This document shows positions 14,808-56,012 of a stretch of DNA of 64,000 nt, one piece after another. The stretch is from the IMG/VR virus record IMGVR_UViG_3300032782_000006, positions 1 to 64,000 of that record; one strand, written 5' to 3'. Both the position numbers and the translations under genes were made by a program. This DNA comes from a virus. Below the pieces are notes generated by a model that saw only the letters and a list, made by a program, of their open reading frames with translations, was not told the origin of the DNA and did not search any database. Numbering within the stretch: position 1 is the first letter of the stretch; each line of letters begins with the position of its first letter.

Positions 14808-15659
14808 TCAGGTTAGGGAGTACATACTGAAATAATATATGGCGGGAGAATATGTCGCACATGATATCATTACAGCCAAGTTGACTACACTTGATGTAGC
14901 GAGTACTAAAGCAGTCTGTGGCAAAACTGGAGTGGATCCTGAGTTCAAGGTAGCTGTATAGGGGCTTGAAGATCCAGTAAATGCAACGGTCAACGAGTTA
15001 TTAACTACACCTGTCTGATTAGTAAATAAAGAACAGGTGACCGTAAGAGTACAGTTCGGTACAGTTGAGCTGGCAACTATAGAGGTAATAGGATGTGTTC
15101 CTCCTCCAGCCGCGAATGTAGCAACATACGTTCCACCGCTTGTAGTTCCAGTAGTTAGGGCTGGAATCGTAGTCGCAACTGGTGTGAACACAATTGGTGT
15201 TGCAGCCATTGGGACTACAAGGGTAGACAATGTTGGAGGTCCAGTGATTTTTACAACTGCAGTGAACTGAATCAAATCTTTTTTGACTTCAGTTGTAAAT
15301 GATTTCAACAGACCGTAGTAAGACCAGCTAGCACCGTTCGGGAATAGGATGGTATACAAGTTGATAGTCTGGTTGATAGATGCATTGTAAAGAGCCTGTT
15401 GACCTGGATCTGTGGCAACATAGTTCCCGGTCATTGTTGCATCTCTACCGTTTCTTCGACCAGGTTTCCATTCTTTATAGATACCGGAATCCTGGTTGGT
15501 AACATCGATTTCGGCAGTGTCCATCAAAGGAACTGGGACTCCAGTATCTTCAACTTCTGCAATATGTGTGCCGTCTATCGATATTAAAATGTTCTTTGCA
15601 ACAGTCGCCTGACTGCCTGCATAGGTGGATATTAACCCACCAAACTGATTTGTAGCCAT
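14808..15659 (-). CDS. Major tail (tube) protein with Ig-like C-terminal domain
   Basis: This 283-residue protein lies between the head-tail connector genes and the chaperones. Its first 145 residues look like a tail tube monomer, including ILISIDGTHIAEVEDTG and a GRRNGRDATMTGNY segment typical of the tube beta-barrel. The rest is rich in Thr, Ser, Ala and Val with alternating hydrophobics and looks like one added Ig-like surface domain, which is common on siphovirus tubes. The start ATG follows GGAGATTGTACTACA, a variant of the leader shared by several structural genes. The tube call is inferred from gene order and length. Confidence 0.7.
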   Translation of the reverse strand: MATNQFGGLISTYAGSQATVAKNILISIDGTHIAEVEDTGVPVPLMDTAEIDVTNQDSGIYKEWKPGRRNGRDATMTGNYVATDPGQQALYNASINQTINLYTILFPNGASWSYYGLLKSFTTEVKKDLIQFTAVVKITGPPTLSTLVVPMAATPIVFTPVATTIPALTTGTTSGGTYVATFAAGGGTHPITSIVASSTVPNCTLTVTCSLFTNQTGVVNNSLTVAFTGSSSPYTATLNSGSTPVLPQTALVLATSSVVNLAVMISCATYSPAIYYFSMYSLT

Positions 15660-33694: not shown

Positions 33695-35027
33695 TTATTC
33701 ACGATTATCCTCCAATTCGTCATTACCTATAGTATCCTGAGTACAACTTTCAAACATTGCTGAAAACTTTTTGATGATATCACAATAAGTCAGAGTTCCA
33801 TATCTTCCTAATTCATAAGATGAAAATTTTGCAGGAGAATCAGGTAATAAATGGTAATCTCCATTCCCAACATATTGAGGATTTGCAAAAATAGCAGAGG
33901 AATCATGAATAGTATCTGGATTATTGAGATGATTGTTATAAAAACAGTTTTCAGAGCATGTGAGTTCATATCGAGTACTAATAAGATTAACTATTCCTGC
34001 ACCGGAATAATGGCCTTTTGAATTCCCTTCTTTAGTATTAGAGATAATGTTTCTTTGAATTGAAGCTGATAATTTGGATAATGTAGAAGACTTAAGGTAT
34101 TCTCCAAAAAGAATACCATACCCTTTACAACTATCGATTGTGTTGTTAAGGATATCTACTGCGGTGAACCCATCACAAACAATCCCTCCAACTCCAGCAA
34201 TACCATTACTAGCCGGCATTATCCCACAGTTTGTGATCAAGTTGTTTTTGATCGAAACGTTTTTAGCGCAAGTGGTTTCTCCACCACCGATTAACCAGAT
34301 TCCAGGACCAAACACGTTTTGAAGAGTGTTTCCGTAAATCTGGATGTTAGAAGTATAAGCACCAGGATCAATGTTTTCTAGCTGGATGGCGGGGGCGTAT
34401 GCAAAATTTGTGCCAATGCATACATTACTAAAAATAGACACGTTGCTAGAATTCCGAACACGAATGGCATTATTGGATCGCATTTGGATATGGTTGTCAA
34501 ATATAGATACATAGTTACAATTGCGCAAATGAATCCAATCGTGACCACCCATAGCACCCGTGCATTCTGAAAATTCGAGATTATACGAATTGAGAAATCG
34601 GAAATAGTCCCCTTCATTATATCCACCTGCTAAGTCGTGGAATTTTGATTTTGAACAATTGGTTAACCCTATAAAATTATGAAACCCTTTCCCATGGTCC
34701 TCAGGAGTTAGGTTTTGATTATTGTAATTCCCGTCAAAGTGGATTCCGCTAATATCCAAATTAGAAATTGTTCTATCTTTTTGTCCAAGAATAGGGATCT
34801 GGATCCCGAATATTGATGGTGGTGCATCGTCCATCAGCGTCCATGTAACGTCTGCATCACATGATATTTTAGTTCCAGAATTGAGTTTGAGTAAAGAATT
34901 GATTAAGTAAGTACCCGAAGTACAATGTAACTCAGAATATTTACAATCAGTGCCAACCTGATCTAGAGATTTCTGAAGTTGATGGTTAGGTTTTATATTT
35001 AAAATAGCCGTTTTGGAAATCCCCCAT
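33695..35027 (-). CDS. Right-handed beta-helix (pectate-lyase-like) protein, frameshifted at its start
   Basis: From 34834 leftwards the frame shows repeated 'N.I..NN.I..S......I' coils ('GNTLQNVFGPGIWLIGGGETTCAKNVSIKNNLITNCGI'), typical of parallel beta-helix sugar-degrading or receptor-binding proteins. The same frame continues upstream without ATG, GTG or TTG and reads like the family's N-terminus ('ELHCTSGTYLINSLLKLNSGTKISCDADVTW'). ATG at 35025-35027 is in frame only if one G of a G5 run (35021-35025) is removed; then the protein begins M-G-I-S-K-T-A-I. So either the gene is broken or phase-variable, or the run is miscalled. It is likely a tailspike or surface depolymerase. Confidence 0.65.
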
Positions 35028-37168: not shown

Positions 37169-38590
37169 TTATTGGGTTTTATAATGCTGTTCTTCATTCG
37201 TAACTTCATCAGGAGTCATTGATTTCTGTCGAGTATATTCTGTAGGGTCTTGGGGTTTTTGAGTAGAATCGTCTTTGGGAAGTTCAGTACTAGATTGTTT
37301 TAGCCATTCCCATTCTGCTCTCATCTCTTCAAGTTCTTCGGGAGTTTTTGGAGGGAGTCCCAGCAACATTCTGTACTCGTTGATATCAATAACTTCGATT
37401 TCCGCTGCGCCTTGAGCGCGTAACTGATCAAGCACTCCGTTCTTGAATTTACGAGGTGGAAATTCTATAGAGATGGAATAGTCAAGGTATCCGTTGTATT
37501 CAAGTACTTTTTGAAGTAAGGGAGTGAACTGTTCGACGATGTGTCCTTGCATTCCGCTAATGAACGAATCCAATAACTCTGCCTTGGCTTCGTCCGAACC
37601 ACCCAGCAATGCTCCATCGGTAGCAATGAAATCTGCTGGGGAGAAATAACTGGAAAAGAAGTTGTTGATTCTAATGATTGTGTTAATCGCCATATCATTA
37701 ACAGTCGCCCCTACTTCTACTACTTTGAAATTTGAAGGAATTACAAAATTGTTATTTTTAGACCAGTTTGAAACTATACTTTTAGCAAGCTCGATATCCC
37801 CGGGTCTTGGATTTTCTACCTGGATGAAAATTGAAGGAGCCCCTACTCGATTTACAGATTGCATTTGAGCAGTCCAAGCAAACTCAGATCGTTGAAACCA
37901 AGGAACTAGATTAAAGAATAGAGGAAGGCCAACAACATCATAATCGTGACTAGGTGGTCTAAAGTGAGTAACAGATCCAAGTTCGAAGGGTTGTCCAAGA
38001 TAGTTTGTTTGATAATAGTGAATTGACATATCTTCCACACGGAATACAATCCCAGGAAGAAGAAGACCGAGAACGTCCTGTGGAGCATAAATCACCGAAA
38101 TATTTTTCCAAGGTACCGCCCGGAAAGAGGCTGCCGGTAAGTCCCTAATCATTTTTAGTTCCCAAAATCCGTCATCTGCTTGATCAATAACGTAATTGAT
38201 AACGTACGCATCAAAACAAAAACAGTCTAGGGCTCGATGCATCTGTTTATAAAGAGCAACTTCTTTAGTTTCACACATTTTTGTGAGACGTAAAGCAAGA
38301 TCTTCATCTTTGTTACCATCTTTATCTGTAACTTTGATCACAGGAGGTTTGGGAGGTAACACCAGATTGATCAATTTTAGTGCCAAACTTGTAGCTTCGG
38401 CGTTATTCCGAAGCTTCATCATTGTAACAATCGTAGTATCTTTATTTTCCCATTGGACAGACTGGTTTGGGAATATATAGACATATCCTTGTTCATAAGT
38501 AGGTGCAGCGGCCTTTTTTTTTCCCGATCCAGGAGGTCTACCTCGCCGCCTGGGGAGCATTTGTGCCATTGCATTAGTTTTATTGATCAT
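37169..38590 (-). CDS. Portal protein with AT-hook-like N-terminus
   Basis: The 473-residue protein has the layout of siphovirus portals: 'ALKLINLVLPPKPP', 'YVINYVIDQADDGFWELKMI', 'VEDMSIHYYQTN...FELGSVTHFRPPSHD', and a helical C-terminus with 'EYRMLLGLPPKTPEELEEM'. The portal forms the ring through which DNA enters and leaves the head. Residues 13-25 read RRRGRPPGSGKKK, an AT-hook-like DNA-binding motif not expected on portals. The ATG follows the GGAGATTGTACCAC leader plus two bases. Confidence 0.75.
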   Translation of the reverse strand: MINKTNAMAQMLPRRRGRPPGSGKKKAAAPTYEQGYVYIFPNQSVQWENKDTTIVTMMKLRNNAEATSLALKLINLVLPPKPPVIKVTDKDGNKDEDLALRLTKMCETKEVALYKQMHRALDCFCFDAYVINYVIDQADDGFWELKMIRDLPAASFRAVPWKNISVIYAPQDVLGLLLPGIVFRVEDMSIHYYQTNYLGQPFELGSVTHFRPPSHDYDVVGLPLFFNLVPWFQRSEFAWTAQMQSVNRVGAPSIFIQVENPRPGDIELAKSIVSNWSKNNNFVIPSNFKVVEVGATVNDMAINTIIRINNFFSSYFSPADFIATDGALLGGSDEAKAELLDSFISGMQGHIVEQFTPLLQKVLEYNGYLDYSISIEFPPRKFKNGVLDQLRAQGAAEIEVIDINEYRMLLGLPPKTPEELEEMRAEWEWLKQSSTELPKDDSTQKPQDPTEYTRQKSMTPDEVTNEEQHYKTQ

Positions 38591-44267: not shown

Positions 44268-44295
44268 GTCCGAAAAGTATATATAATTTAAAGAC
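44268..44295 (+). promoter_or_regulatory. Regulon promoter copy driving the 44308 gene
   Basis: GTCCGAAAAG, then TATATATAATTT, then AAAGAC. This is a plus-strand member of the TCCG-TATA-CAGAC family; the gene starts 13 bp later. It is nearly identical to the minus-strand copy at 58283. Confidence 0.65.
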
Positions 44296-44891: not shown

Positions 44892-45242
44892 GTGAAGAAG
44901 ATAACGGATCGGTATATAAAAATTCTGAATCGGCAAGAACAAGATTTGTTGAAGTTGATGAAACGGGAAGATAAGGTGTTGAAGAAGTATAACGGAGATT
45001 TTGATTTTATATATGGGTATGAAGTTTATGGAGTGAGCGAAGACGGGAGGTTGATGATACGGCACCCAGATCAAGGGTATATGTTGATCGAAGAGAAAGT
45101 GTGGGTACGGATGATACTGTATGAGTATGCTGCGTATTTTAGAGATGAAGACGAGGCGAGAGAGATGTTGACGAGGATACCAGTGCTTAATAAATATGTG
45201 GATACCGAAATGGCATACCTATTTCCAGGAGAGTATGCATGA
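44892..45242 (+). CDS. Hypothetical protein (116 aa), paralogue of 55698 gene
   Basis: GTG start, with AGGAG 10 nt upstream. It contains 'YEVYGVSEDGRLMIRHPDQGYMLIEEKVWVRMI', which aligns with 'YQVYGFSSDNRLLLYNEDYGWFLGEAKSWVEII' of the 55698 gene. The shared core is Y-x-VYG-x-S-x-D-x-RL, D-x-G and WV-x-x-I. The N-terminus is a basic helix. Its stop overlaps the next start (ATGA). Confidence 0.65.
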   Translation: MKKITDRYIKILNRQEQDLLKLMKREDKVLKKYNGDFDFIYGYEVYGVSEDGRLMIRHPDQGYMLIEEKVWVRMILYEYAAYFRDEDEAREMLTRIPVLNKYVDTEMAYLFPGEYA

Positions 45243-45502
45243 AAAATTATATGACGGCTATTTATAGTGATTCTGAAATGACAAAAGAAGCGTGGTTGGA
45301 AAAAAGTGGAGATAAACTTAAACAAAAAGTGATGAGTAAACAAAAACAGTATGGGGCGGATGGAGCGCAACTTATACTCAAAATGCCGAGACAAGAACTG
45401 TTTTACCAGAAGATAAGAGAACCACAACCTGAACCCAACCCAGGAGAGATTGTGGGGCAGGGAACTGCAAAAGCTCAACTCACCCTAATTAGTGATCCGT
45501 AA
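45239..45502 (+). CDS. Hypothetical protein (87 aa)
   Basis: It is coupled to the previous gene by ATGA. The sequence has a helical first half ('EMTKEAWLEKSGDKLKQKVM') and ends with a Pro/Gln-rich tail ('REPQPEPNPGEIVGQGTAKA'). No family is recognised. Confidence 0.55.
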   Translation: MKNYMTAIYSDSEMTKEAWLEKSGDKLKQKVMSKQKQYGADGAQLILKMPRQELFYQKIREPQPEPNPGEIVGQGTAKAQLTLISDP

Positions 45503-45568
45503 AGTATAAATATTTTTCGGAATGTAATAGTTTGGAAAAAAATCGGAAGATGTTTATATATAGAGATC
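45496..45568 (+). promoter_or_regulatory. Two regulon-like promoter copies in tandem
   Basis: TCCGTAAAG, TATAAATA, TTTTTCGGA at 45496-45521 is a full inverted TCCG/CGGA pair. TCGGAAGATG then TTTATATATAG follows at 45543-45562. The second points to the plus strand, where no clear gene starts. Confidence 0.5.
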
Positions 45569-45574
45569 ATTGGG

Positions 45575-45743
45575 GAGTAGTGACAGGGAATCCCTGTTGG
45601 ATTTTGGATGAAAAGATATCTATACCGCCGTTGATGGGTTGTTGGCACAGCCCGTCGAGGGAAAACTCATCAAAGTATATTTAAGTCGGTCAGAAATTTT
45701 GGCAGGTGTAAAAGCCTGTCAAATACTGCTATATCTTTTTTTT
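45575..45743 (+). ncRNA. Small RNA candidate with terminator
   Basis: After the TATA box at 45552 the stretch holds ACAGGG/CCCTGT, TTGATGGG/CCCGTCGA (with wobbles) and a final TTGGCAGG/CCTGTCAA stem (45699-45722), followed by T8 at 45736-45743. That is the shape of a roughly 160-nt terminated RNA. A 44-codon frame from ATG near 45549 (starting MFIYRDHWGVVTGNP) overlaps the TATA box and is the alternative. Confidence 0.45.
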
Positions 45744-45755
45744 ATAAATAAATGT

Positions 45756-45782
45756 GTCCGGAAAGTTTATATATTTTACAGA
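45756..45782 (+). promoter_or_regulatory. Regulon promoter copy facing a gene-free region
   Basis: GTCCGGAAAG, TTTATATA, TTTTACAGA. It is a near-consensus member on the plus strand, but 45790-46344 downstream has no credible frame, so it may drive an untranslated RNA. Confidence 0.6.
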
Positions 45783-45789
45783 TATTAAA

Positions 45790-46344
45790 GAAATATCTTG
45801 TAGGTAGCCCGCGCCAGGAATTTTCGGAAACGTGATCTTTTGAAAAACCGCGCTGAGAGAAAAAATAAAAAATCTTTCTTTTTGAGAATCTGCCGCGATC
45901 TCTGAAAAAAAGATTTAGCTGCCCGAATCTGCGCGGATTTCAGCGGCTCCGAAATTTATTTCCAGCGCTGGGCTTTGACGCGGGAAATCTGAGAACCCGG
46001 CCGCGAGCGCGCTAGGAGAATCCCCCAAATCTCGAGGATCCAATTCCTAATTCCTATTTTGAAAATGCTAAATCTTGCCGCAACTTTTATTTTCTACTCG
46101 GCTTCTCGATTCCGGAGGCGGGTTCGGCGCGCTCAGAGACAATTCCTTTTTTTTGATTTTAAAAATTGCGGCAAAATACAGATTTTAAAAAAGTTGCCTT
46201 AAGATTCGGAAAAAGAGCAATCGTTGAAAATTAGGAAAAAGATTAGAAAAAAGTTAGATTATCGTCGGGGATGCCGGCGATGACCACGATGTCCGTGCCG
46301 AAATAATCTAAAGATATGCCAGAGATGAAGCAATCCCATTTAGA
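45790..46344. other. Gene-free stretch, locally GC-rich with inverted repeats
   Basis: GATATT/AATATC sits at the start. AAATCTTT... pairs with ...AAAGATTT across about 45 nt near 45870-45916. CG-rich parts (GGCCGCGAGCGCGC near 46000) alternate with AT-rich parts, unlike flanking DNA. No coding frame is supported. Confidence 0.4.
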
Positions 46345-46822: not shown

Positions 46823-48130
46823 AAGCGAGCTTGAGGAGACAAAACGTTTGGAGAGAATCTGAAAAAAGATCTAAAAACAGAAATCTAAAAAAGAGAAGAC
46901 CGGAGCAGACGGTCTCGCATCCGCCTCTCTCGGTCTTACCCTGCTTGATAGCACATAGAGTGTGTATCTACTAATATATCCTTGACCGAGCCGTTACTAG
47001 GGTGTGAGAGAATAAAAACCTAGCGACTCGTCTACGCAAATTACCTTTGTCACTGTCGCAGATGTTACTAAATGGCGTTTACGGAATGGGTCCGCCCGTT
47101 TAAAAAACGATTTCACCGATTCATTTTTTCGTTGCCGCAACTCTGCGTTGCAGATCAGGCACCTAATCACAATCCGACCAAAGACGCTAATGCCCATGTA
47201 TAAGACATAAGCCCCCATCTTATAAAGACCCTAACTCTACAACATCTCAAACCGCGCACCCTTTGGCATCTGATTGCGGCGACTCGAACGGAACGCACTA
47301 ACCGGCTTCCGAGGGCGAGGAGGCGGGCAGGGAGGCCGGAGGCGAGAGAGACAGAGAGGATGCCAATGAGACATGCCCTACTGTCCTGCCCTACTATCCT
47401 ATCCTGTCTATCCTATCTCATATACCCTATGCGCACATAGCAATGAGTCAGGGCATATATCTCCCCTTTATAGGGCACATCATATTACATCTCAGCCCAG
47501 ATTCGGATAGGAGATATGATCTGTATAATTTATTTCGCGGCCCGATCAGATGCGGCAACTCAAAGACCGGCAATAGGAATCCGATTAACCAACCCTACAT
47601 ATCAGAGGGCATGCAATCTAAACGGATCCCCTATAGGATCCCCTATAGGATCCCCTCATCGCCCTAGAATGCCCTAACCAATCGAGTTAGAAAATAGTAT
47701 CTATTAATCGTCTCCCTTTTAGATAAATCACTATTTAAAAAATAATTAGGGGAACAATCTCACTATTTTTTAGGGTTTAATCGCGGCCAAAAAGTTAAAT
47801 AGTTGCCAATAATTCCCTAATTTTTTTGTAGTAGTATTCCTCCCTGAGAGCTATAGGCTTCTATAGGAGCCTATAAGAGCCTATAGGAGCATGACACAGC
47901 ATAGCATGGAGGGACTATGGCAGGGACAGGGACGCGGCATATGGCAGGACAGGGAGACGGGAGACAGGGCAGCTGAAAGCGCAGGGAGCACACGCGTTGA
48001 AAAAGTGGGAAACTCGAGGCGATAAAAAAGCTGGCGATTTGGAAAAGGAGGGATATCAAAAACAGAGTGGTTAAAAAAGAGTGGGAGTAACCCACTGAGT
48101 AAAGCGTCTAATACTGCAAGAACATAACCT
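46823..48130. other. Gene-poor, repeat-rich, GC-rich stretch
   Basis: No convincing gene is seen in 1.3 kb. It holds AGACCG/CGGTCT with a second CGGTCTT nearby (46890-46940), runs such as CTATCCTATCCTGT (47380-47420), three 12-bp tandem copies of GGATCCCCTATA (about 47623-47660) and GAGCCTATAG repeats (47850-47890). Short frames at 46997-47218 and 47881-48147 are weak. Composition differs from both flanks; it could be a packaging site, origin or acquired DNA. Confidence 0.45.
47623..47660. repeat. Short tandem repeat, 12-bp unit
   Basis: GGATCCCCTATA occurs three times in tandem, the last incomplete. It lies in the gene-poor GC-rich stretch. Confidence 0.7.
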
Positions 48131-48853: not shown

Positions 48854-49132
48854 CTACTGGAATCTCCTAATCACAGCCAGAACCTGTTGTTTCACCCAGT
48901 GGCTTGAACAAGAGATCATGGGGAGCATGGCAAACCATTTCTTGCTAGTTCCAAGAGCGGGATCTGCGTTATGGAAATCGCAGTAATGGAACAGTTCGTA
49001 TCCAGGAGCCATATGTGTAGCTGAGGTGTGGCATCCATCTAGGATCCAAGTCATACCGTGGTCGCTGAATGCGGTTCCGATTGGGTGTGCTGCGAGCGTT
49101 GCAAAATCTGTAATTGTGTTCAAATCGATCAT
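48854..49132 (-). CDS. Hypothetical protein (92 aa), His/Cys-containing
   Basis: The sequence has 'GMTWILDGCHTSATHMAPGY', 'LFHYCDFHNADP' and 'MLPMISCSSHWVKQQVLAVI'. The His and Cys residues are spaced as in some metal sites, but no family is recognised. AAGGAGAAC precedes ATG, and a hairpin leader and a regulon promoter lie upstream. First gene of a three-gene operon. Confidence 0.6.
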   Translation of the reverse strand: MIDLNTITDFATLAAHPIGTAFSDHGMTWILDGCHTSATHMAPGYELFHYCDFHNADPALGTSKKWFAMLPMISCSSHWVKQQVLAVIRRFQ

Positions 49133-49159: not shown

Positions 49160-49203
49160 TGTGTCAGCGCAAGGCATCTGTTTCACCTTGCAATAACTAC
49201 TAT
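49160..49203 (-). promoter_or_regulatory. Leader hairpin of the 49132 gene
   Basis: In the RNA GCAAGG pairs with CCTTGC around 11 nt, followed by GCTGACA. It is the counterpart of the GCAGG/CCTGC hairpin before the gene at 46727. Confidence 0.5.
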
Positions 49204-49231
49204 GTCTGCAAAATATATAAACTTTTCGGAT
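49204..49231 (-). promoter_or_regulatory. Regulon promoter copy (49132 gene)
   Basis: On the minus strand ATCCGAAAAG, TTTATATA, TTTTGCAGAC; the closest to the family consensus. Confidence 0.65.
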
Positions 49232-49273
49232 AAGCAAGAAAAGAAGAGTGATTTTTCAAATAACCTAATAAAA

Positions 49274-49299
49274 CCGATAAATATATAAACTTAGCAGAC
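49274..49299 (+). promoter_or_regulatory. Regulon promoter copy facing the pseudoknot RNA
   Basis: On the plus strand CCGATAAA, TATATAAA, CTTAGCAGACA. The asymmetric flanks (CCG before, GCAGACA after) put this copy on the plus strand, with the expected RNA start near 49305-49310, exactly at the first paired bases of the structured region. The TATA core itself reads about equally well on the minus strand. Confidence 0.5.
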
Positions 49300-49302
49300 A
49301 AT

Positions 49303-49442
49303 CTACCAAGTAGCTTGGGACAAAGCTAGTCCTAGCATCGTCTAGGCGTATCGAATGTTGACTAGAGGCTTGGTATTGACCTCTAGGAAATCGGATGCAT
49401 AATATAAGGGAGCTAGGGATTGAAAAATATCAATTTCTAGCT
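49303..49442 (+). ncRNA. Candidate structured RNA with pseudoknot
   Basis: Hairpins: TAGCTT/AAGCTA (49311-49328), CCTAG/CTAGG (49331-49346), CTAGAGG/CCTCTAG (49362-49386) and AGCTAG-GG-ATTGA with TCAAT-TT-CTAGCT (49411-49442). The loop of the third hairpin contains CTTGGTA (49369-49375), complementary over 7 bp to TACCAAG at 49304-49310, giving a pseudoknot. No reading frame is present. It lies between a minus-strand operon and the end of the large terminase gene. It may be a regulatory RNA, a packaging signal or a decoy for host factors. Confidence 0.55.
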
Positions 49443-49615
49443 AAAAATCTGAAAAATATAAAAAGATTGCGGAACTCTAAAAATGGCCGCGCTTGTATAA
49501 TAAAGCCTGTAATTTTTCAGTCTAAAAATAGTCAAGATTGGTATTTTTCGAGTAAATGACCTATAATCACACCACAAAAGTATCCAAAAATGAATTCAAG
49601 CATAAACTCCCTCTT

Positions 49616-51040
49616 TTATTTTGAAAATCCCATCATTCTCCAAATATTTTCTCCAAACGACGATGCTAGGGAGCTTCCTTCTGTAATAGAAGCATCAAAT
49701 CCTTCTTGTTTTATCAAATTGAGCTCAGTTATACCCCAAACTAAACTATCTAACCGATCAGGACTCTTTTCCGCCCCAGGAACCCATTCACATAACTGGT
49801 CTTCCAATTCACGGAACGTCCCTACATGATGAACACGACCTTGTTCATAAAGAGACGACACCGGCTCTGCCCGAATAACTTTTCCTCTAGATGCGTGAAC
49901 TGCCTTAAACGGAACTGATGCATCCAACATCCTAATCGTATGTTCGACCATATCGCCTCCATTATTGACCTCGCCAACTACCAGATTTGCCTGATGAAGA
50001 TGAAATGCAGAAATCACCGCTTTTCCCCATTGTTGCGGCGTATCATGAATCGTATAATCTCCTAGAACATATCCATGATTATTAGCATCTGCCGCGACTA
50101 CTATAATCCCAGTATCATCAGACCCCTCTTTAGAGGTAGTAGCCGGATCTACACCAACCACAACATAGGTATATTGTGCAGGCGGTTTGTAGACTCTATT
50201 ATCGTCAATAATGTCTCGTTTCCAAAGCGCTTCAGGATTATCTGAAAGAAAATCGCCTTCTAGCTCTTGTCTCCCCAACCTAGTCCCTTTATATTTATTA
50301 ATAATTGTCGAAATAAAGACAGGTGAAAGGTTGCAATAATTTTCTTGAGTATTGCCGCGAGTCACCACGGTACATTTTCTTCCCTTATCGTCCATCCTTT
50401 TTTCTAATTCTATAAGAAATTTAGTCGGTCTGGGAGTAGAAGATACTATACAAAGAGGATTTTTGCCTAATCTGAGACCCATCATTAGATTATCAAACGT
50501 CTCCTCTGGCCGCAACCATTTTGCGATTTCGTCACACCATAAAAAATCAGATTGGGGACCTCGCGCCTTATCCGGTTCGGATCCATAATAAAAATGAGAC
50601 ACTACTTTATTTGGCCAAATCAGCTTTTTTAAAGACGGGATAAACGTTGGATAAAAATCTTTAGGGCAACACGCTAGGATACCGGATTCCCCATCGATCA
50701 TTAGATCGCGCACATCTTCGGCGGTAGCTCCGACTAGATTAGGGTATTTATATCCGCCATAACGTACAGCCCAAACGAACGTTTCCGCTGAGGTTTTGGT
50801 TTTACCCCATCCTCGCCCAGCTCGGATATTCCAGATGAAACAGCCGTCCTTTCCCCATTCGTCTGGTGGAAGCTGGTTATCTCTAGCCCAGAACAACCAA
50901 TCTTTTTTAAAAAATTCTAGTTGAGAATCAGGAATAGATTTTAGAAACTGTTCCTGCTCATTTTTCGGTAGGCTGCGAAGATAATCCGCTGAGTATCGAT
51001 GATCTAATCTCTTCAGGACTGGTTGCGTCGACGTTGACAT
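49616..51040 (-). CDS. terL: Terminase large subunit
   Basis: The 474-residue protein has an ATPase domain with Walker A GRGWGKT (residues 75-81) and Walker B DFLWCDE (165-171), and a motor motif 'SSTPRPTKFL'. The nuclease domain has Asp in 'VVGVDPATTSKEGSDDTG', acid residues in 'VVGEVNNGGDMVEHTI' and 'DRLDSLVWGI'. It cuts and pumps viral DNA into the portal. It overlaps the small-subunit gene by 83 bp, so translation is coupled. A clear ribosome-binding site is not seen, and its start could be later. Confidence 0.95.
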   Translation of the reverse strand: MSTSTQPVLKRLDHRYSADYLRSLPKNEQEQFLKSIPDSQLEFFKKDWLFWARDNQLPPDEWGKDGCFIWNIRAGRGWGKTKTSAETFVWAVRYGGYKYPNLVGATAEDVRDLMIDGESGILACCPKDFYPTFIPSLKKLIWPNKVVSHFYYGSEPDKARGPQSDFLWCDEIAKWLRPEETFDNLMMGLRLGKNPLCIVSSTPRPTKFLIELEKRMDDKGRKCTVVTRGNTQENYCNLSPVFISTIINKYKGTRLGRQELEGDFLSDNPEALWKRDIIDDNRVYKPPAQYTYVVVGVDPATTSKEGSDDTGIIVVAADANNHGYVLGDYTIHDTPQQWGKAVISAFHLHQANLVVGEVNNGGDMVEHTIRMLDASVPFKAVHASRGKVIRAEPVSSLYEQGRVHHVGTFRELEDQLCEWVPGAEKSPDRLDSLVWGITELNLIKQEGFDASITEGSSLASSFGENIWRMMGFSK

Positions 51041-51419
51041 TTACATTCTCGTTTTGGTTTTTATTATCTGACGTTATATGTTGTCTTTCGCCAAAGTCGT
51101 CTGGATATCGACGAGATAACATCCAAGTATCGTAATACGGACTATTATTTTTCAAAACCTTCTCTCGTATTCTTTGAAGGCATCCGCGAGCGCAATCAGC
51201 CTCCGCTTTTTTTATTCGATCATGAAAATCAGTATAAATAGTATCTTCGCCGATATCTTTTTCATGAGCCCCTTGTTTCATCCATTCGTTAAATGTTTGA
51301 AACGCAATTCCTGCAGCCTGACATGCTAGACGATACGGCATTCCTAAATCGATATTTTCAACTAAAATCTGAGTTCGTTCTTCGGTTAATTTTAGAGGTC
51401 TCCCTCTTCCTCGTGACAT
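50958..51419 (-). CDS. terS: Terminase small subunit
   Basis: The 153-residue protein has an N-terminal helix-turn-helix ('LVENIDLGMPYRLACQAAGIAFQTFNEWMKQ'), then a helix pair ending 'YYDTWMLSRRYPDDFGERQH', and an Asn/Val-rich tail. It recognises the packaging site for the large subunit. Residues 3-8 read RGRGRP, an AT-hook-like start also seen on the portal and on the 44308 protein. A minus-strand TATA TATATTTTTATAG lies at 51430-51455. Confidence 0.8.
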   Translation of the reverse strand: MSRGRGRPLKLTEERTQILVENIDLGMPYRLACQAAGIAFQTFNEWMKQGAHEKDIGEDTIYTDFHDRIKKAEADCARGCLQRIREKVLKNNSPYYDTWMLSRRYPDDFGERQHITSDNKNQNENVNVNVDATSPEEIRSSILSGLSSQPTEK

Positions 51420-52705: not shown

Positions 52706-53168
52706 AAATTAGGTTTTCTTGTCGGAACCATTCTGTAATTGTAGCTTCGGCTTTAGCTGTAGTTTCAAATTCAAAAACGTCTTTTATTTTTTTCCAATCA
52801 ATACAATGGTTTTTGTATTGAGTTATCAAAGATGATTTATTTTTTTCGAACTTTGTCATCCTAAACTCGTTTCTACTTTCTTCCTGTTTTTGTGCGAGAG
52901 TGATAACTTTGAGTTTGGATTGTTGTAATTCTTTAATATGTAATGCTTGCTTTTTTTCTTCTTCCAACCGGATTATATCTAACTGTTTTTCATAGATTAG
53001 ATGATCGTAAAATTCAGGGACGATTCTTTCGTCTAGTATTTTATTCATTGCTTCAGATAATAATGTTGAAAGACTAGGAAGGTCATGTGACTTCTCACAA
53101 ATTTCCCATAAGTCAAGCAGTGATTTCTGGAGTTTTACAGTCTTGGATATACGTTCTATTTCAGACAC
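52704..53168 (-). CDS. Probable ribbon-helix-helix protein with coiled coil (154 aa)
   Basis: GTG start behind AGGTGA. Residues 5-50 ('RISKTVKLQKSLLDLWEICE', 'DLPSLSTLLSEAMNKILDE') look like a ribbon-helix-helix DNA-binding domain. Residues 60-115 are a Lys/Glu/Gln coiled coil. The end is a small helical part. The gap before it is full of GGACGA repeats, its likely binding sites. Confidence 0.6.
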   Translation of the reverse strand: MSEIERISKTVKLQKSLLDLWEICEKSHDLPSLSTLLSEAMNKILDERIVPEFYDHLIYEKQLDIIRLEEEKKQALHIKELQQSKLKVITLAQKQEESRNEFRMTKFEKNKSSLITQYKNHCIDWKKIKDVFEFETTAKAEATITEWFRQENLI

Positions 53169-53194
53169 TCTTTCTCACCTGAAAGATTCATTTT

Positions 53195-53335
53195 ATTTGG
53201 ACGAGGACGACGTCTTCGTCCAAGTCCTCAGACGTAAAATAGTGTACACTATTACTACGCCGTCACTGCGTCGGTGGACGACGTTTTTGGATTGACCCTT
53301 TTTAGGGTTGGACGAAAAGTTCGTCCACGTCCATT
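53195..53335. repeat. GGACGA inverted-repeat cluster
   Basis: TTGGACGAGGACGACG meets CTTCGTCCAA as a 27-bp near-palindrome (24 of 27 symmetric). TGGACGAA/TTCGTCCA follows with a 3-nt spacer, and more GGACGA copies lie between. It fills the gap before the ribbon-helix-helix gene and could be an operator array or origin. Confidence 0.55.
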
Positions 53336-53739: not shown

Positions 53740-53974
53740 GGTACAATCTCAGTACCTAATTGATATGTCCCTGACCATATTTAAAACTATTCAAACAGTC
53801 ATTATCCAGTGGGTATCCTTCCCTACCAGGGCTTTAGCCCACCACGTTTTCCATTTTGCCAGAATATTAAGAACAATATCACAAAGTATAAATTCTTGCA
53901 AAAATAACATAGTACTATTGGAGAAGTACCACATTATCGTCACAAAAATTTAAGCTTTGACGATTTTGCGCTCT
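53740..53974. other. Gap without gene
   Basis: About 235 bp between units. It holds a GTGGG/CCCAC pair near 53809-53840. No promoter or coding frame stands out; the plus-strand frame 53738-53953 lacks a ribosome-binding site. Confidence 0.4.
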
Positions 53975-54012
53975 AAGCCTAGAGATTGTTCCACCAATCT
54001 CTGGCTTTTCCA
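53975..54012 (-). terminator. Terminator after the 54034 gene
   Basis: AAGCC-T-AGAGATTG and CAATCTCT-GGCTT pair with one bulge around TTCCAC. It lies 20-60 bp after the stop of the minus-strand gene. Confidence 0.6.
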
Positions 54013-54033
54013 TTCACTGACAGTATTTCCTAA

Positions 54034-55697: not shown

Positions 55698-55997
55698 TCA
55701 TTCCCCAGTTACGTTCTTTACATATTCCAGCATCAATCTCATATTTTCATGCAACTGCTCTATAATTTCTACCCAAGATTTGGCCTCTCCTAAAAACCAT
55801 CCATAGTCTTCATTATATAGTAAAAGTCGATTATCTGAAGAAAACCCATAAACTTGATACTCCATAGGATAAACCATTCCAGGATTGTTATCCCCAAGTC
55901 CATATTTAGTCCGAGTTCGTAAAAAATTACCCCTATCTGTCTCTTCATTCAACTTTTCTACAAATTCTTCGTCAATTACATAATTAGTAACTACCAT
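55698..55997 (-). CDS. Hypothetical protein (99 aa), paralogue of 44892 gene
   Basis: ATG at 55997 is 7 nt after GGAG. The part 'YQVYGFSSDNRLLLYNEDYGWFLGEAKSWVEII' matches the 44892 protein. The rest is helical and acidic. Two copies in one virus suggest a duplicated regulatory or host-interaction domain. Confidence 0.65.
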   Translation of the reverse strand: MVVTNYVIDEEFVEKLNEETDRGNFLRTRTKYGLGDNNPGMVYPMEYQVYGFSSDNRLLLYNEDYGWFLGEAKSWVEIIEQLHENMRLMLEYVKNVTGE

Positions 55998-56012
55998 AAT
56001 CAAACTCCATGA

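Follow-up and report, generated by a model that had tools for sequence, protein, structure and literature searches.

Background

The packaging RNA of phage phi29, which lies near a packaging gene, has about the length of the stretch described here (positions 49303–49442 of an archaeal virus sequence). Structured RNAs of archaeal viruses have been little explored, and in the literature on their structured and small RNAs nothing directly comparable with this stretch was found. The halovirus HF2, an archaeal tailed virus of ~77 kb, contains recurrent intergenic repeats with TATA and BRE elements before genes, some of which are active in both orientations; its TATA elements are located from position −26 (PMC8707807). 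Archaeal TATA boxes are able to fire both ways, and bidirectional BRE-TATA-BRE promoters of Pyrococcus furiosus directed divergent starts 49 bp apart in vitro (PMC6640164). In Methanolobus psychrophilus, BRE/TATA elements are positioned 19–22 nt ahead of the transcription start, and 195 non-coding start sites have been reported (PMC5378194).

The locus analyzed here resembles HF2 in that repeated intergenic copies of an element with BRE and TATA immediately precede genes, with a single orientation. However, the sequences are, by eye, unrelated, and the predicted promoter described here is a palindrome around the TATA element with TCCG/CGGA arms. As in the BRE-TATA-BRE promoters of P. furiosus (PMC6640164), a symmetric TATA element could yield divergent transcripts, but in our virus a conserved start-site block is present in the minus direction only. 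Like the intergenic non-coding RNAs of methanogens (PMC5378194), the stretch is a structured RNA candidate located in a gap, in a Methanosarcinales-type system; it differs from those of M. psychrophilus in being viral, in the putative nature of its transcript, in its candidate pseudoknot, and in that no homologue was found.

The virus and the genes flanking the stretch

The window, i.e. the whole stretch of DNA that was analyzed, comprises bases 1–64,000 of the 77,567-bp IMG/VR record IMGVR_UViG_3300032782_000006 and has a GC content of 39%. Its virion and packaging genes, and the downstream neighbour of the stretch, are:

14808–15659: major tail protein
37169–38590: Mu-like portal protein (weak match, under the Pfam cut-off)
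48854–49132, minus strand: 92-aa orphan gene with an AGGAG site and tandem promoter copies, downstream neighbour of the stretch
49616–51040, minus strand: terminase large subunit, terL (PF03237, 6e-20; PF17289, 1.3e-12), of the Terminase_6N/6C type
50958–51419, minus strand: terminase small subunit, terS

The window also encodes a ParB-like protein, an ERCC4-type nuclease, and a thymidylate synthase-like protein. A Disaggr_assoc domain is present twice; among 14 control genomes, this domain matched Methanosarcina acetivorans only. Proteins with disaggregatase-related domains are encoded at 33695–34834 and at L084 11890–16914; they suggest an attack on, or binding to, the cell-surface matrix of Methanosarcina by the virus. 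Judging from its BRE/TATA-type promoters and gene content, the virus is presumably tailed, with a Methanosarcina-like archaeon as its host. A DNA methyltransferase of the N6_N4_Mtase family (4.8e-44) is encoded at L084 7222–7986.

Relatives were sought at several levels. At the gathering level, Rfam models matched nothing in the window, and lax settings returned chance-level matches to unrelated families only. DNA similarity searches in phages and plasmids, and exact motif scans of IMG/VR with the hairpin and two promoter forms, gave no hits. Searches for kin viruses by way of the portal, ParB-like, 92-aa, and 339-aa proteins found none, and contig scans of genome collections with the portal and a disaggregatase-related protein revealed no relatives, it being understood that some collections may leave out records very near the window. 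Relatives of terL were confined to distant records, the best showing 53% identity. This closest IMG/VR terL (L002 1294–3240) has an apparent intein-like insert ahead of its final 60 residues, and a TnpB fragment opens the contig on which it is located. A TnpB omega RNA or IS605 remnant was considered as an identity of our stretch and rejected, PF07282 being unmatched in the virus record.

The stretch is situated between terL (upstream) and the gene at 48854–49132 (downstream), which are both on the minus strand; the product of the latter is without a family match. Two features of the interval overlap the stretch:

49395–49559, plus strand: 54-aa open reading frame starting in hairpin P3 (see below), coding unsupported
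49423–49590, minus strand: candidate archaeal oligo-U termination region, with seven U5 runs past terL (two on the plus strand)

The preliminary description had called the stretch gene-free. No supported gene lies in it, but the claim has to be qualified by the overlapping 54-aa reading frame, whose codon score of −0.07 falls within the range of wrong frames (−0.18 ± 0.21) and for which a homologue search found none. Its start codon and an AGGA motif are in or beside paired segments. The presence of hairpin P4 and of a promoter copy inside the reading frame argues against coding.

Fold of the intergenic stretch

Folding recovered all four of the hairpins that had been described within the 140 bp, and the reported complementarity of the third hairpin loop, CTTGGTA, to TACCAAG at the 5′ edge proved to be an exact 7-nt match. 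The elements are:

49304–49310: TACCAAG, one strand of a possible pseudoknot helix, exact complement of 49369–49375
49311–49328: hairpin P1, 6 bp
49331–49346: hairpin P2, 5 bp (CCTAG/CTAGG)
49348–49398: hairpin P3, with outer stem 49348–49352/49394–49398
49362–49368/49380–49386: inner stem of P3, 7 bp, closing an 11-nt loop which contains CTTGGTA (49369–49375)
49411–49442: hairpin P4, 13 bp (z −5.4 on the plus and −5.6 on the minus strand)

The fold of 49303–49442 is non-random. Its predicted energy is −45.8 kcal/mol on the plus strand (mean of 200 dinucleotide shuffles about −32, z −3.99) and −36.1 kcal/mol on the minus strand (mean about −24, z −3.90). With 500 dinucleotide shuffles the z-scores were −3.91 and −3.80, respectively, and none of the 500 shuffled sequences was as stable on either strand. 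These results support the view of the stretch as a structured intergenic element of an archaeal virus. The stability signal is largely due to P4; the core 49304–49400 alone, with the pseudoknot not counted, has a z-score of −1.9.

The match between TACCAAG and CTTGGTA directly abuts the inner stem of P3, and every hairpin is compatible with the knot. A comparable 6-bp hairpin with a 7-nt loop complement occurred in 28 of 3000 shuffled sequences (~1%), and about 20 loop-complement sites of this sort are present across the window. The knotted state was calculated at −55.4 kcal/mol before penalty, as compared to −46.5 kcal/mol for the nested state. The standard pseudoknot penalty is about 9.6 kcal/mol, after which the two states are about equally stable, so that the energy model neither demands nor forbids the knot. 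The P2 segment 49331–49342 also has a 12-nt exact inverted match to the 3′ end of terL (49659–49670), which is at chance level; pairing of the two segments within a minus transcript is conceivable.

Promoter family and its orientation

A 30-nt element occurs in twelve copies within 44–58.5 kb of the window, with the consensus TCCGAAAAGTTTATATATTTTRCAGACAT, which in gene direction reads TCCGAAAAGTTTATATATTTTRCAGACATAGTAGGTATTG. The layout of the family consists of BRE and TATA between TCCG...CNGA arms, followed by a conserved block at the expected start site. Canonical minus copies are followed by an open reading frame with an SD-like motif 14–64 nt past the expected start, while the plus copy at 44269 leads into a near-leaderless open reading frame. 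As a regulon-like set of predicted promoters the family is sound on sequence grounds, and it is a firmer result than the structured stretch. The regulon promoter that the preliminary description placed beside the stretch belongs to this family, whose canonical copies lead into open reading frames. The copies around the stretch are:

49201–49230, minus strand: canonical copy for gene 48854–49132 (leave-one-out score 50.7)
49269–49298, minus strand: near-palindromic copy (PWM score 27.9 on the minus versus 7.1 on the plus strand)
49444–49473, minus strand: degenerate copy facing the stretch, within a U-run tract (PWM score 12.0)

The copies at 49269–49298 and 49201–49230 are arranged in tandem ahead of gene 48854–49132, and 61 nt past the expected start of the latter copy there is an open reading frame with AGGAG. 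For the degenerate copy, whose start-site block is not conserved, the chance expectation is 0.03 per 16 kb of shuffled sequence; as it overlaps the U tracts, it could be a by-product of them.

The copy at 49269–49298 was scored against the nine best family copies, with shuffled sequences as null. On the minus strand, no shuffled sequence reached a score of 20, and the start-site block ranks in the top 0.04% (p 0.0004), whereas the block on the plus strand is exceeded by 61% of positions. On the minus strand both the core and the start-site block conform to the family, so that the main direction of this copy is minus, towards 48854–49132. Its outer half-sites CCGA and GCAGACA, on the other hand, face plus (block score 8.7 vs −1.3). 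The preliminary description, which placed this copy at 49274 and oriented it towards the stretch, was therefore right as to the outer half-sites, but not as to the BRE/TATA core and the start-site block. Its proposal that the RNA starts at the first paired base does not hold: with the spacings of HF2, Methanolobus, and P. furiosus, a plus start is predicted at about 49305–49312, in or just past TACCAAG, and would remove this pseudoknot strand wholly or partly.

Working strand and alternative explanations

The interpretation we tentatively favor, with less than even confidence, is that 49303–49442 separates two minus-strand genes as a structured, non-coding spacer, most likely made as a minus-strand RNA that serves as an end mark or protector, or as a leader. 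As terL and 48854–49132 are both minus, read-through from terL would yield minus RNA over the stretch, and so would transcription from the degenerate copy at 49444–49473. Such transcripts would run first into the U-rich tracts of the candidate termination region, then into the hairpins and the pseudoknot; the structure might protect the 3′ end of the late message or serve as its mark, or else it might be a folded leader. The stretch would thereby separate late transcription from the downstream promoter-family gene 48854–49132. What we infer, beyond the observations themselves, is a minus working strand, the formation of the pseudoknot, and an insulating or leader role. The core and the start-site block of 49269–49298 face minus, a further copy (49444–49473) faces minus into the stretch, and seven U5 runs follow terL on this strand. 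Moreover, both pseudoknot strands lie within any minus transcript, and, with a 4-nt loop across the deep groove and helices that adjoin without a gap, the knot on the minus strand has the classic layout of an H-type pseudoknot. Against the minus strand, two internal G-U pairs of P4 on the plus strand turn into A-C mismatches, and one G-U pair of outer P3 exists on the plus strand alone. The start predicted for 49444–49473 (about 49436) lies inside P4, so that the z signal of P4 would be lost (minus strand 49303–49436, z −1.7). The shuffle z-scores, nearly equal on plus and minus, favor neither strand. We therefore lean towards the minus strand, without confidence.

A plus-strand small RNA is somewhat unlikely. 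It would require the palindromic copy at 49269–49298 to fire both ways, giving a transcript from about 49309 that folds into P1–P4 and functions either as a regulatory RNA or as the leader of the 54-aa reading frame, the start codon of which is located in the P3 stem. The outer half-sites of the promoter and the G-U pairs of P4 and P3 are consistent with such an RNA, whose segment 49310–49442 still has a plus-strand z-score of −4.1 and which could terminate at the U5 runs at 49513 and 49544. An archaeon is known to have bidirectional BRE-TATA-BRE promoters (PMC6640164); as archaeal TATA boxes can fire both ways, the minus orientation weakens, rather than refutes, a plus-strand regulatory RNA. 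What tells against it is the low promoter score on this strand (7.1 vs 27.9) together with the missing plus start-site block, the loss of all or part of TACCAAG from a transcript starting at about 49305–49312, and, for the leader variant, a reading frame that is without coding support. The viral regulatory RNA of the preliminary description accordingly survives as a structured element in an archaeal virus, while the promoter core and start-site block point away from it and a plus start would truncate the knot strand. More ambitious, and distinctly unlikely, is the idea that the stretch represents a new class of compact pseudoknotted RNA of methanogen viruses, sharing the palindromic promoters of small viral genes and being either trans-acting or a regulatory leader.

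Other explanations do without an RNA function of this kind. CTAG occurs seven times within the 140 bp, which is the densest cluster in the window (about 6e-5 such windows expected), and as CTAG is self-complementary, any two copies can pair, so that stems are built on them. The fold might thus be a functionless relic or by-product of clustered short palindromes, in a genome with several such gap clusters. This explanation, which we judge unlikely, agrees with the palindrome clusters that other gaps carry on different words, with the modest z-score of the core without P4, and with the ~20 similar loop-complement sites in the window, but it does not account well for stems longer than CTAG, of up to 13 bp, nor for a pseudoknot strand that abuts its stem exactly in a set of fully compatible helices. 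The same palindromic words, the ParB-like protein encoded in the window, and the palindromic promoter copies on both flanks might also indicate a DNA-level element, i.e. a binding array or cruciform for replication, partition, or gene control. The bases flanking each CTAG differ, however, without a common extended site, and a hand check of the CTAG spacing revealed no clear helical phasing, rendering this proposal improbable. An attachment site of an integrating virus was rejected, as no integrase was found: the tyrosine integrase family PF00589 is unmatched in the record. Nor was a tRNA found. The suggestion of a packaging signal or packaging RNA beside the terminase gene, made because the stretch adjoins terL, is not supported and appears highly improbable. 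Sites of the pac and cos type are normally located in or 5′ of terS, the 5′ side of which is here at about 51419, whereas the stretch is 3′ of terL. In this position, in its Terminase_6 enzyme, which is not of the pRNA-using phi29 type, and in lacking a match to the phage pRNA family of Rfam or to any other of its families, the locus differs from phi29.

The stretch may be a mere structured spacer between genes. Should it prove to be transcribed, with its pairs conserved in relatives, it would provide a testable example from a methanogen virus, and the promoter family may coordinate this RNA; otherwise it would serve as a warning that gaps rich in palindromes can fold well in genomes of this type and yet not be RNAs.

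Other structured gaps

Within 44–57 kb, intergenic gaps on average fold better than coding windows (p 0.009). Gaps that fold as well as the stretch or better were found, in 44–60 kb, at 53870 (z −7.9 on the minus strand), 45610, and 53170; with at least three other intergenic gaps folding comparably, the stretch is not unique. No sequence common to the structured gaps was found beyond short words.

The gap at 53850–53990, between two minus genes, contains a very strong, long imperfect hairpin (53830–54030, minus strand, z −6.9) without a significant Rfam match. In the intergenic segment 53169–53387, a cluster of inverted repeats is built on GGACGA/TCGTCC words (53130–53330, plus strand, z −4.7). 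At 45496–45750, a plus-facing copy of the promoter family is followed by a structured stretch (45500–45760, z −5.6) which ends in a hairpin and a run of eight T; a 44-aa open reading frame within it is without coding support. This segment is a cleaner small-RNA candidate than 49303–49442. A second plus-facing promoter copy belongs to 45757–46330, where the first 260 nt beyond the copy are free of open reading frames of at least 30 aa. Two small paralogue-like proteins with the pattern YGxSxDxRLxxxxxDxGxxLxE are encoded at 44892–45242 and 55698–56003, within the promoter-family region. Short palindromes (CTATAGGATCCC, CTATAGGAGC) are arranged in tandem at 47620–47890, where the genome is poor in genes.
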